From Microbulbifer sp. Q7 (GTDB lineage: Bacteria > Pseudomonadota > Gammaproteobacteria > Pseudomonadales > Cellvibrionaceae), in the NCBI RefSeq assembly GCF_001639145.1, contig NZ_LROY01000002.1, positions 1,768,501 through 1,832,500 of the forward strand: DNA of 64,000 nt. The letters run 5' to 3'. Shown one piece after another: positions 26,145 through 57,002 of this stretch (position 1 is its first letter; every line of letters begins with the position of its first letter). The notes under the pieces are model-generated. The model saw nothing but the letters and a program-made list of their open reading frames with translations. It ran no database searches and had not been told where the DNA came from. The position numbers were made by a program, and so were the translations under genes.

Positions 26145-26252
26145 ACCGCTACCGGGTGCTGCCTCGCGAGACACGCCGTGAACCCATCCTTGGGGGCTCT
26201 TCTAAAACATCCCTGTTTTAGAAGGTCTCGCGAGGCAGCACCCGGTAGCGGT
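26145..26252 (-). repeat. Structured three-way-junction repeat, copy A
   Basis: The outer stem is a perfect 27-base inverted repeat (26145-26171 with 26226-26252). Inside are 54 bases: a 28-base box (26172-26199, core AACCCATCCNTGGGGGCTC) that can form a short hairpin, then a 9-bp hairpin TTCTAAAAC-ATCCCT-GTTTTAGAA (26200-26223). Read on the minus strand, the two loops are AAGGAT and AGGGAT. The same box and layout occur at 56737-56843 and 56889-57002 with different but equally paired stems. It lies between gcvR and trmL, both on the plus strand. Confidence 0.9.
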
Positions 26253-26320
26253 ACCTACGGCGAACCATCACTAGATAATCCGGTGCTGGCATAGTTGCCA
26301 ACCCCTAAGCGCCTCTAACT

Positions 26321-26788
26321 ATGTTCAAAATCGTGCTCTACCAGCCGGAAATTGCCCCCAATACCGGCAATATCATCCGTCTGTGTGCCAATACCGGTGC
26401 CGAGCTGCACCTGATCGAACCCCTGGGGTTCGCCATGGACGACAAGCGCCTGCGCCGGGCGGGGCTGGACTATGCGGAATACAGCCGCGTGGTACGCCAC
26501 CGCGACTGGGAAGCCTTCGTGGAATCGGAGCAGCCGAAGCGGGTACTGGCGCTCTCCACCAAGGGCAGTCGTCCGCACTCGGAGATCGAGTTCCGCGCTG
26601 ACGACGCTATTGTGTTCGGCCCGGAGACCCGCGGTCTGCCCGCCGAATTTCTGGCGGCGACCGGTCCTGAGCACACCCTGCGCATCCCCATGTGCGCAAA
26701 CAGCCGCAGTATCAATCTTTCCAATGCGGCGGCCATTGTCATTTATGAGGCCTGGCGCCAGCTGGGCTATGTCAACGCCCAGGCCTGA
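26321..26788 (+). CDS. trmL: tRNA (cytidine/uridine-34 2'-O)-methyltransferase
   Basis: 155 residues, a complete minimal SPOUT methyltransferase: MFKIVLYQPEIAPNTGNIIRLCANTG at the N-terminus, VFGPETRGLP in the SAM-binding knot and IPMCANSRSINLSNAAAIVIYE at the C-terminus. TrmL methylates the wobble ribose of tRNA-Leu isoacceptors. It is followed by fldB and mnmC on the same strand with short gaps, which groups two wobble-base modification enzymes in one likely operon. Confidence 0.96.
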   Translation: MFKIVLYQPEIAPNTGNIIRLCANTGAELHLIEPLGFAMDDKRLRRAGLDYAEYSRVVRHRDWEAFVESEQPKRVLALSTKGSRPHSEIEFRADDAIVFGPETRGLPAEFLAATGPEHTLRIPMCANSRSINLSNAAAIVIYEAWRQLGYVNAQA

Positions 26789-26824
26789 GCGAACCGCTCA
26801 GGCTGAACCAACAACCAGAGTTTT

Positions 26825-27346
26825 ATGCGCGCACCAATCGGACTTTTTTACGGCTCAAGCACCTGTTACACGGAAATGGCGGCGGAGAAAATTCGCGACC
26901 GCCTCGGCGAGGAGTGGGTCGACCTGCACAATGTGGCGGATGACGATATCGCGCAGATGCAGGACTACGACTTCCTGATTCTCGGCATCCCCACCTGGGA
27001 CTATGGTGAGCTGCAGGAAGACTGGGAAAACTGCTGGGATCAGCTGGCACAGCTGGACCTGAGCGGGAAAACCGTGGCCCTGTACGGCCTGGGCGACCAG
27101 GAAGGCTATCCCCAGTGGTACCAGGATGCCCTGGGCTACCTGCATGCACAGGTGGTTGCGATTGGCGCCAAGGCCGTCGGTTACTGGCCCGTCGAGGGTT
27201 ACCAGTTTGAGGAATCCAAAGGGCTGACCCCGGACGGCAGTCACTTTGTGGGCCTTGCCCTGGACGAGGAAAACGAGTTTGACCGCAGTGACGAGCGCCT
27301 CGACCAGTGGTGTGCTCAGGTCATGCGCGAATTCGGCCTGCAGTGA
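26825..27346 (+). CDS. fldB: Flavodoxin, FldB type
   Basis: 173 residues, a long-chain flavodoxin. The FMN phosphate loop is GLFYGSSTCYTE, the isoalloxazine contacts are in GIPTWDYGELQEDWE and GLGDQEGYPQWYQDALG, and a long-chain insertion lies near 125-150. It carries low-potential electrons for reductive enzymes. The mnmC start follows 10 bases after the stop. Confidence 0.92.
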   Translation: MRAPIGLFYGSSTCYTEMAAEKIRDRLGEEWVDLHNVADDDIAQMQDYDFLILGIPTWDYGELQEDWENCWDQLAQLDLSGKTVALYGLGDQEGYPQWYQDALGYLHAQVVAIGAKAVGYWPVEGYQFEESKGLTPDGSHFVGLALDEENEFDRSDERLDQWCAQVMREFGLQ

Positions 27347-27355
27347 CCGCCACCC

Positions 27356-54978: not shown

Positions 54979-55225
54979 TGAGCGTCCAGCGTCCCTGATT
55001 GCGGTTCGAAAAAGAAGCGAGTGGAATGCCAAATTCCAGTTTAGATACATCCGGATAGGACACCGGATCAAGCAATCCGATCCTTCTCGGGTTAAACTTG
55101 TGCGGCGCATTATCACCAAAAAGCCCGGCAATGTCTCGGCCCGCTCGTAACCGGCGCCGCTACAGACCGCTCGCATCGAGCCCTTCAGAGCCGCGGGCCC
55201 CAAAGAACATCAAGGAACCACTTAC

Positions 55226-56695
55226 ATGCAGTTCACCGCCAAGGTCACCGATATCAGCAAACAGCGCAGCGCCTGCGCCATTCTCGCCGTCGACAACAAA
55301 AATCGCTTCACCGATAGCGGCAGTATTCTCGACAAGGCAAATGGCGGCAACCTGGCGAAGCTGCTCAAGCGCGGCGACCTCGGCAGTGCCGCCGGCAGCA
55401 CCCTGCTGGTCCCCACTCTGGAAGGCAGCGCCGAGCGTGTGTTGCTGGTGCGCACCAGTAAAACACCCGTTTCCGCCACCGAGTTCCGCAAGCTGGCCAG
55501 TGCCAGCGCCAATGGGGTGAAGGCCTTGAAAGACGCCACCAGCTACCTCTCCGAGGTTTCTGTCGAAGGCGTGGATGCGACCTGGCAGGCACAGCAGATT
55601 GCGCTGGCTGCCGGTCTCGCTGGCTACAAATTCACCCGCTGTCACAGCGACGCCAAACCCTACCCGCTGGCCAAATTCACCGTACACGCTGCCGACAAAA
55701 AGCAGCTGAAGGCCACACAGAAGGGTGTGGATCTTGGCAGCGGCCAGGCCATGGGCAGCAATATTGCCCGCGAGCTGGGCAACCTACCCGGCAATATCTG
55801 CACCCCCAGCTATTTGGCCTCCGAGGCCAAGGTGCTGGCCAAAAAACATGCAAAGCTGACCACCACGGTTCTCGACAACAAGAAAATGGAATCCCTCGGC
55901 ATGGGCGCGTTCATGAGCGTCGCCAAGGGCAGCGACGAGCCGGCGGCGATGATCGCGATGAACTACAAAGGTGGCAAGACCGGCCAGAAGCCGATTGTGC
56001 TGGTGGGCAAGGGCATCACCTTCGATACCGGCGGCATCAGCCTTAAGCCGGGCATGCAGATGGATGAAATGAAGTTCGACATGTGCGGCGCAGCCAGTGT
56101 GTTTGGCGTGATGAACGCGCTGGTGGAAATGAATGCACCGGTCAACGTAGTCGGTGTGGTTGCCGCCGCGGAAAATATGCCCAGCGGTCGCGCCAGCAAG
56201 CCCGGTGATATCGTCACCTCCATGAGCGGCAAAACCATCGAGATCCTGAACACCGACGCGGAAGGCCGCCTGGTGCTGTGCGACGCCCTCACCTGGGCGG
56301 GCAAGTTCAAGCCCAGCGTGGTGATCGACGTTGCCACCCTCACCGGTGCCTGTGTCATCGCCCTCGGCCACCACGCCACTGGCCTTTACGCCAATCAGGA
56401 CAAGCTGGCCGACGAGCTGCTGGCTGCCGGTGAAACTACCGGTGACCGCGCCTGGCGCATGCCCTTGTGGGACGAGTACCAGCCGATGCTGAACTCCAAT
56501 TTTGCCGATATGCAGAACATCGGTGGCCGCGAAGCCGGCTCCGTTACCGCCGCCTGCTTCCTGGCGCGCTTTGCAGAAGACTACAACTGGGCCCACCTGG
56601 ATATCGCCGGCAGCGCCTGGAAATCCGGTGCCGCCAAAGGCGCTACCGGACGCCCGGTGCCGCTGTTGCTGCAATACATCCTGAATAAAAAGTGA
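55226..56695 (+). CDS. pepA: Leucyl aminopeptidase
   Basis: 489 residues, M17 family with two metal ions. The catalytic domain shows VGKGITFDTGGISLKP (Lys262, Asp267) and NTDAEGRLVL (Asp344, Glu346, Arg348). The N-terminal macro-like domain fills about 1-165. PepA hexamers cut N-terminal residues and in E. coli also bind DNA in regulation and in Xer recombination. It is first in the order pepA-holC-valS. Confidence 0.96.
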   Translation: MQFTAKVTDISKQRSACAILAVDNKNRFTDSGSILDKANGGNLAKLLKRGDLGSAAGSTLLVPTLEGSAERVLLVRTSKTPVSATEFRKLASASANGVKALKDATSYLSEVSVEGVDATWQAQQIALAAGLAGYKFTRCHSDAKPYPLAKFTVHAADKKQLKATQKGVDLGSGQAMGSNIARELGNLPGNICTPSYLASEAKVLAKKHAKLTTTVLDNKKMESLGMGAFMSVAKGSDEPAAMIAMNYKGGKTGQKPIVLVGKGITFDTGGISLKPGMQMDEMKFDMCGAASVFGVMNALVEMNAPVNVVGVVAAAENMPSGRASKPGDIVTSMSGKTIEILNTDAEGRLVLCDALTWAGKFKPSVVIDVATLTGACVIALGHHATGLYANQDKLADELLAAGETTGDRAWRMPLWDEYQPMLNSNFADMQNIGGREAGSVTAACFLARFAEDYNWAHLDIAGSAWKSGAAKGATGRPVPLLLQYILNKK

Positions 56696-56736
56696 AGATT
56701 CTGGTTCAACCGAAGCAAAACAGCTGACGCGAAGGC

Positions 56737-56843
56737 GCAGGGGCTGGTGACGATTTGCGAGACCGTACGCGGCCCGGATGGCCGCGTCCGAGCCCCCATG
56801 GATGGGTTTACGGCGTGTCTCGCAAATCGTCACCAGCCCCTGC
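56737..56843 (+). repeat. Structured three-way-junction repeat, copy C
   Basis: Inverted orientation relative to copies A and B. The outer stem is a perfect 26-base inverted repeat (56737-56762 with 56818-56843). The interior is 55 bases: hairpin ACGCGGCC-CGGAT-GGCCGCGT (56767-56787), then the reverse of the conserved 28-base box (56790-56817). Read on the plus strand the loops are CGGAT and ATGGAT. It starts 41 bases after the pepA stop, so pepA readthrough would include it. Confidence 0.9.
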
Positions 56844-56888
56844 ACCGCTACCGCTCTAGATTCCGGAGCACGGAACAACCGAAGTGGC

Positions 56889-57002
56889 GGCGCCGCTACC
56901 CGGTGCAGCTTTGTGAAACACGCCGTAAACCCATCCCTGGGGGCTCTTCCGCGAGGTCCCTCTCGCGGAAGGTTTCACAAAGCTGCACCGAGCATCGGCG
57001 CC
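56889..57002 (-). repeat. Structured three-way-junction repeat, copy B
   Basis: The outer stem is an 18-base perfect inverted repeat (56901-56918 with 56973-56990) plus an outer 7-bp stem (56889-56895 with 56996-57002). The interior is 54 bases: the 28-base box (56919-56946), then hairpin TTCCGCGAG-GTCCCT-CTCGCGGAA (56947-56970). Read on the minus strand, the loops are AGGGAT and AGGGAC. It also shares its left flank (gtggcggc-ccgctac) with copy A. It ends 37 bases before holC. Confidence 0.9.

Follow-up and report, generated by a model that had tools for sequence, protein, structure and literature searches.

A dispersed, strand-selected repeat with a conserved three-way-junction fold and GGA loops resembling CsrA sites in Microbulbifer sp. 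Q7

What are the three palindromic elements in a 64,000-nucleotide (nt) stretch of the Microbulbifer sp. Q7 genome (contig NZ_LROY01000002.1, positions 1,768,501 to 1,832,500; hereafter the window), and on which strand and in which molecule is their structure kept? Each consists of an outer stem (P1) of ~30 base pairs (bp) that encloses two hairpins, P2, formed by a constant box, and P3. The repeat is real, abundant and more specific than an initial annotation of the window had supposed, and its copy number, fold, covariation, strand bias, loop constancy, taxonomic spread, inverted pairing and turnover are established by observation. The explanation we favor, which we consider evenly poised between right and wrong, is a dispersed REP/BIME-like repeat that acts as an RNA of the strand opposite the box and carries two CsrA-type hairpins on a stem of free sequence. 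The link to CsrA is a testable prediction made from sequence.

The shared layout that the initial annotation had described for the three elements was recovered by inverted-arm searches, folding, box matches and a covariance model. They are listed here with the RNA strand, i.e., the strand opposite the box.

26142..26255, RNA strand minus, box strand plus: element 1, between an ACT-domain (GcvR-like) gene and trmL
26137..26143, strand not assigned: conserved end motif GTGGCGG of element 1
26142-26172 and 26225-26255: P1 arms of element 1 (31 nt, 97% in the inverted-arm search)
26181..26199, minus: P2 (constant box) of element 1, RNA-strand hairpin CCC-AAGGAU-GGG
26200..26224, minus: P3 of element 1, RNA-strand hairpin with loop AGGGAU
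56734..56846, RNA strand plus: element 2, ~40 nt past the stop codon of a leucyl aminopeptidase gene
56734-56763 and 56817-56846: P1 arms of element 2 (30 nt, 97% in the inverted-arm search)
56764..56789, plus: P3 of element 2, GGA at 56776-56778
56790..56808, plus: P2 (constant box) of element 2, GGA at 56800-56802, 24 nt downstream of that in P3
56889..57002, RNA strand minus: element 3, upstream of a DNA polymerase III chi gene (57040-57465)
56889-56919 and 56972-57002: P1 arms of element 3 (31 nt, 90% in the inverted-arm search)
56928..56946, minus: P2 (constant box) of element 3
56947..56971, minus: P3 of element 3, RNA-strand loop AGGGAC

Element 2 is oriented opposite to elements 1 and 3, and with element 3 it makes up an inverted pair. 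The end of family members opposite GTGGCGG usually reads CCTTCGCATC or close to it. The P1 arms are separated by 52-53 nt in all three elements, with ends set by the inverted-arm tool (54-55 in the initial annotation). Folded as DNA, elements 1, 2 and 3 gave z-scores of -17.6, -12.8 and -10.2; in no case did any of 200 shuffles fold as well. The box core, AACCCATCCNTGGGGGCTC, is itself the short hairpin P2, with a loop of the same kind as that of the adjoining P3; it was matched three times in the window at up to 3 mismatches, against 0.06 expected. A covariance model built from 61 RNA-strand copies detected exactly the three elements in the window (expectation value [E] 6e-22 to 3e-20), with element 3 inside and elements 1 and 2 outside its training set.

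That the fold rather than the sequence is kept, as first proposed from these three copies, held in the alignment of the 61 copies. Changes on both sides with pairing kept were found at 20 of the 23 model pairs; the other three, invariant pairs of P2, could not vary because the search pattern fixed them. Conservation of the three-way-junction fold, not of the sequence, is thus supported. P2 is extended by GCC/GGC pairing across a 5-nt bulge. Among 49 copies found by the model only, its stem arms read TACA/TGTA (27 copies), CCCA/TGGG (18), TTCA/TGAA (1) or CACA/TGTG (1), or were not recognized (2). These variants retain the loop, as NNNANGGAYG in 47 of the 49, a constancy limited by a reading pattern that required NGGAY and by a covariance model that favors such loops. 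P3 has 21 distinct 5' stem arms in the Q7 genome and 56 elsewhere. Two side observations concern the interior of the element. In 13 of the 60 Q7 box copies (L001-L058; for example, L012), AGCTAGGCGCCCCCC or a similar sequence replaces GCCGTG before P2 on the box strand, a variation also seen between orthologous copies. At L004, L014 and L040, P3 bears a long extra arm (tens of nucleotides, containing GGACGCCG.AGGCGCCCGCAG), which is shorter in one of the three.

The strand under selection was read from the mismatches in P1. In this test 148 of 184 copies were kept; the 36 dropped (2 from Q7, 34 from other genomes) had no P1 of score 12. On the box strand, A.C/C.A mismatches numbered 110, G.T/T.G mismatches 14 and all others 92 (binomial p ~1e-19), with A.C:G.T at 46:2 in Q7 and 64:12 in other genomes. 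By reasoning, mutation of double-stranded DNA would yield A.C and G.T equally, and the ratio of 110:14 therefore argues for selection on the strand opposite the box, where box-strand A.C mismatches are G.U wobbles. The selected fold sits on that strand, opposite to the one on which the elements had first been read, and the loop motif described below points the same way. Among the remaining 92 mismatches, 81 are C.T or C.C, which the opposite strand shows as G.A and G.G. In Q7 the bias was independent of neighboring genes (13:2 in sense copies, 13:0 in antisense copies) and occurred on both contig strands (20:0 and 26:2). When folded as RNA, the strand opposite the box was the more stable one in 112 of the 148 copies and the less stable in 34. 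Element 2 and its orthologues, from 18 of 20 genus genomes examined (Q7 included), together show 498 standard pairs, 19 G.U, 7 A.C and 16 other mismatches on the RNA strand; six of the seven A.C lie inside the conserved outer end motif and one adjoins it. The mismatch bias by itself does not separate RNA from single-stranded DNA. Such a mismatch-asymmetry test is a cheap way to identify the selected strand of a palindromic repeat.

The covariance-model search that the initial annotation had proposed as a check turned up many further copies with divergent but paired stems, both in Q7 and in its relatives. Allowing up to 2 mismatches, the box pattern has 60 matches in the Q7 genome, and 0 when read backwards. 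The model recovered 58 of these 60 and, with 150 of the 1618 candidates of its first look scored, reported 107 copies at E 0.001. With up to 100 candidates scored per genome, the genus yielded copies in 46 of 48 genomes; with up to 17, the class sample yielded them in 50 of 274 genomes, or 44 of 222 genera, Q7 being counted in each set. Within the genus the number per genome ranged from 0 to at least 100. An exact, shorter box pattern was found in 41 of 96 genomes searched (Q7 included), with up to 109 matches in one of them; Microbulbifer, Halomonas, Stenotrophomonas, Shewanella, Rheinheimera, Marinobacter, Methylotuvimicrobium, Saccharospirillum and one Desulfopila are the named genera among the matches listed. 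One copy on another Microbulbifer contig (L079) has the same P1 5' arm as L003. With a 56-base core as the query, plasmid records gave one weak 21-base match only and phage records gave no match.

On the RNA strand, the loops of both P2 and P3 read ANGGAY. A GGA in the P3 loop or within 2 bases of it was present in 125 of 131 copies, although P3 lay outside the search pattern; 9 copies had no clear hairpin, and those with long P3 insertions were excluded. The P2 GGA had at least 2 bases unpaired in the RNA fold of 132 of 143 copies. Position 2 of the P2 loop was mostly G (94 of the 184 copies) or U (78), rarely A (10) or C (2). Whereas box-found copies carry CCA in P2 by construction of the search, the P2 of the 49 model-only copies contained ACANGGAY in 28 cases and CCANGGAU or UCANGGAU in 19, with none recognized in 2. 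The spacing of the two GGA triplets is 22-24 nt in all but one of the 61 aligned copies; CsrA prefers sites ~18 nt apart. The repeat thus has the paired hairpin-loop GGA of CsrA/RsmA-binding RNA, and its loops look like sites of this type, to which binding is predicted. The consensus obtained for CsrA by systematic evolution of ligands by exponential enrichment (SELEX) is RUACARGGAUGU with GGA in a hairpin loop (PMC4347634), and CsrA sites are described as generally paired because CsrA is a dimer (PMC4333381). One CsrA gene is present in the Q7 genome.

These features suggest how the repeat may work. The functional molecule would be RNA rather than single-stranded DNA. The opposite-strand RNA would fold into the three-way junction, with P1 presenting P3 and then P2 and their ANGGAY loops, and the sequence of P1 could be free because the stem would only need to be a rigid closing stem. 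Elements may be transcribed by read-through or within untranslated regions or antisense transcripts, and the two loops of a copy could be held by one CsrA/RsmA dimer. Copies would then titrate CsrA, mark and stabilize the transcript that carries them, or do both.

The genomic placement of the repeat bears on this mechanism and on its rivals. Mapping of the copies, likewise suggested at the outset, placed 54 of the 60 box copies of Q7 in intergenic DNA (by a simple coding model), dispersed rather than arrayed, many of them no more than some tens of bases from a predicted gene end. All 18 close pairs (up to 450 nt apart) are inverted; in 16 the RNA 5' ends point at each other, and in 2, among them the window pair of elements 2 and 3, the arrangement is reversed. 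In 17 of 58 Q7 copies, the GCGAAGG end is preceded on the RNA strand by a TACGAAGTA-like motif, nearly always at a distance of 17-20 nt; ACGAAG is ~24 times enriched in the flanks of Q7 copies, and the motif may form a spacer hairpin in inverted pairs. Two side observations concern copy density in Q7 (G000): 67 copies lie in 1.41 Mb of contig C1 compared with 40 in 2.55 Mb of C2, and 9 lie at 0.2-1.4 Mb of C2, around where the sampled GC skew changes sign (the probable terminus).

In the window, the neighbors are genes for a GcvR-like ACT-domain protein and TrmL (element 1) and for leucyl aminopeptidase and DNA polymerase III chi (elements 2 and 3); the matches for TrmL and the aminopeptidase each clear one or more NCBI cut-offs, while the GcvR-like and chi models score below theirs. 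Away from the elements, four minus-strand tRNA genes at window positions 12633-13020 have alternating scores of 71.1, 56.8, 71.1 and 56.8 bits, as if two tRNAs had been duplicated as a pair.

Turnover was followed against a close relative (G029) at 21 element sites, those near a locus end being skipped; both flanks were found for 18, at 88 to nearly 100% identity. The box was retained in the same orientation at 12 of these sites, gone at 3, flipped at 2 and reduced from a pair to a single copy at 1. The element finder used misses some copies (L033, and the first L007 copy in G029). Among the kept copies, P1 was largely different in some (e.g., L002, the second copy of L007, L046 and L048) and identical in others (L003, L009, L029 and L047). 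Spacer identity fell below 75% for 8 of the 18 element spacers and for 3 of 27 element-free window spacers (p 0.016). Faster change of element-bearing spacers is suggestive only, because the controls lie elsewhere on the chromosome and because the two spacers of the window that hold elements, neither of them among the 18, have identities of 0.60 and 0.95. The gcvR-trmL spacer of G029 is 95 bp shorter, as if most of element 1 had been deleted. Three single cases are added as side observations. At L030 and L033 (L343 and L350 in G029), the whole element spacer is replaced by one whose element points the other way; the exchange has sharp edges, and its flanks are 93-98% identical. At L356, the G029 counterpart of the second L011 site, a different palindrome ending in GTAGGGTGGATAAGCGCAGCGCATCCACC stands where Q7 has an element; by eye, it resembles a GTAG-type REP.

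Much of this behavior is also what would be expected of a mobile single-stranded DNA repeat, an option already raised in the initial annotation and one that we retain as a rival while regarding it as unlikely. Under this explanation the repeat is REP/BIME-like, the folded strand is a transposition intermediate for a Y1 (RAYT-like) or other transposase, and the G.T-tolerant strand is the one handled by the enzyme; G.T is tolerated in DNA hairpins. The 107 copies, their intergenic location, the invariable inversion of close pairs and the gain, loss or flipping of copies relative to G029 all fit, as does strand-specific selection without gene-orientation bias, which suits a function at the level of the element. 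However, the sole Y1 gene found in the Q7 genome is 48 kb from the nearest element, and its 3.3-kb locus lacks CATCCNTG, a weak point since only 0.69 matches are expected by chance. Y1 genes were not found in 10 of 49 carriers, including G167 and G332 (97% and 99% complete), in each of which 17 copies were found, equal to the number scored. There is also no GTAG tag at the ends, and a GGA loop motif is not known as a feature of Y1.

We judge it unlikely that the repeat is a structured RNA bound by some protein other than CsrA, or one serving as a 3'-end stabilizer or RNase III processing site. The near-perfect ~30-bp stems, the constant junction and the many copies close to a predicted gene end are consistent with such a role, but a stabilizer or RNase III site would have no need of two GGA loops at fixed spacing on one strand only. 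A double-stranded DNA feature (cruciform, nucleoid or topoisomerase site) fits the palindromic DNA and the uneven chromosomal copy density but is very improbable, and the cruciform proposed among the initial options was rejected, because a cruciform is symmetric for both strands and the 110:14 bias of P1 mismatches is unexpected for it.

Several observations weigh against an opposite-strand RNA with CsrA-type hairpins. Among the 60 box copies, the neighboring genes are both sense in 21 cases, both antisense in 19, mixed in 11 and incomplete in 3; such neutral orientation is odd for an mRNA element and, given that one strand is selected, suggests element-level selection, transcription of its own or titration in trans. 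In the flanks of Q7 copies, inspection by eye and k-mer counts revealed no promoter consensus beyond the TACGAAGTA-like motif. The commonest P2 has CCA where the SELEX consensus has ACA. A CsrA gene was found in 45 of 49 carriers and in 70 of 80 genomes without a model match (Fisher p 0.57), a co-occurrence that is uninformative because the two groups are not separated, and in one carrier with 9 copies found (G289, 98% complete) CsrA was not found. Among named families, TwoAYGGAY (Rfam RF01731) matched only weakly in a lenient scan, at 2 of 20 Q7 loci (E 0.038 and 0.81) and at none of 20 loci of other genomes, and was outscored in the 20-locus scan by several unrelated miRNA families. Another, the Yersinia small RNA Ysr224 (RF02770), which is the closest small RNA with reported transcription, is filed in Rfam on the box strand, opposite to the strand selected here.

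A broader view, which we hold to be doubtful although a real possibility, is that a selfish or domesticated superfamily, present across the Gammaproteobacteria and in at least one Desulfopila, carries a paired CsrA-binding RNA cassette into intergenic DNA, that TwoAYGGAY and Ysr224 are glimpses of it from opposite strands, and that the repeat helps to set CsrA availability and the transcripts touched. If so, the Q7 genome would contain ~200 GGA hairpins, and the availability and targets of CsrA would be set by a fast-turnover repeat, not by dedicated sponge RNAs alone. Should the CsrA reading itself hold, it could jointly explain two Rfam families that have no established function and assign them a strand; CsrA, a global regulator in many environmental bacteria, would then face ~100 extra paired sites in numbers that vary between close relatives. 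A single genus whose genomes hold from 0 to 100 or more copies offers a natural experiment.

How, then, does the repeat compare with known systems? The initial statement that no known family matches was too strong. It stands at curated scores, at which Rfam placed none of its families, CsrB/RsmX/Y/Z included, on the elements of the window or on those of 17 further loci; below them, full-length matches to TwoAYGGAY occurred at 2 of 40 loci and antisense matches to Ysr224 at 24 of 40, so that the counter-finding named in the initial annotation, a match to a known family, is in part there. Among the papers listed in literature searches with the box letters and their complements, none looked relevant by title, and those listed for palindromes with a CGTC tag, or for CsrA together with repeats or sponges, had no title or abstract that describes the repeat. 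Microbulbifer and Halomonas go unmentioned in the main texts of Di Nocera 2013 and RepRanger 2025, as does CATCC in that of Di Nocera 2013. The Alteromonas Aln1 and Alcanivorax CsrR1/2 are CsrA-related small RNAs other than this repeat.

Among more distant systems, the CsrB/RsmX/Y/Z sponge RNAs likewise present GGA hairpins to CsrA dimers, but have several per molecule, whereas here there are two sites per unit, about 100 units and a long P1. REP/BIME sequences (GTAG and CGTC families; PMC3733652) share short intergenic palindromes, inverted dimers and high copy number. In contrast to them, the present units measure ~110-150 nt, form a three-way junction and differ in their stems between most copies; no GTAG or CGTC tag was found at the end of a 20-40 bp palindrome, the ends being GTGGCGG and CCTTCGCATC or near it on stems of ~30 bp, and the Q7 genome yielded no RAYT (Y1) gene flanked by the repeats. 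Integron attC sites form integrase-associated arrays with conserved R boxes, unlike the dispersed copies described here.

TwoAYGGAY and Ysr224 come nearer. TwoAYGGAY has the same long, poorly conserved outer stem over two adjacent GGA-loop hairpins; its model aligned in full with the RNA strand of L315 at 32.9 bits, in a lenient scan of six P2-variant loci, and scored 27.1 bits against L306. No locus reached its curated gathering score of 43 bits, the best being the 32.9 of L315. The miRNA family matches in the lenient scans, some above TwoAYGGAY, were set aside as long-hairpin artifacts, and the link rests on anatomy more than score because several of them score as high. The strict AYGGAY loop is present in less than half of the copies because position 2 of the P2 loop is often G or A (104 of 184, against U or C in 80 of 184). 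Dispersal in ~100 copies per genome goes unmentioned for TwoAYGGAY in the available descriptions, which give it as probably an RNA, from human gut, gamma-Proteobacteria and Clostridiales (Weinberg 2010; PMC2864571), already predicted to bind CsrA (PMC4333381). The Ysr224 consensus is the complement of the same two-hairpin core, spanning both hairpins on the box strand with a core near ACGCCGTAAATACATCC. Its whole model matched the box strand at 14 of 20 loci in Q7 and 10 of 20 in other genomes, the best match (40.5 bits, L257) falling short of the curated gathering score of 70 bits. Ysr224 is described as multi-copy and differentially expressed in Yersinia ruckeri (PMC12112432) and among the most prevalent small RNAs (PMC9029176), and the portions of the literature available on the two families hold nothing that unites them. 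We call the repeat a highly multiplied variant resembling a published motif class, with TwoAYGGAY and Ysr224 as its closest named families.

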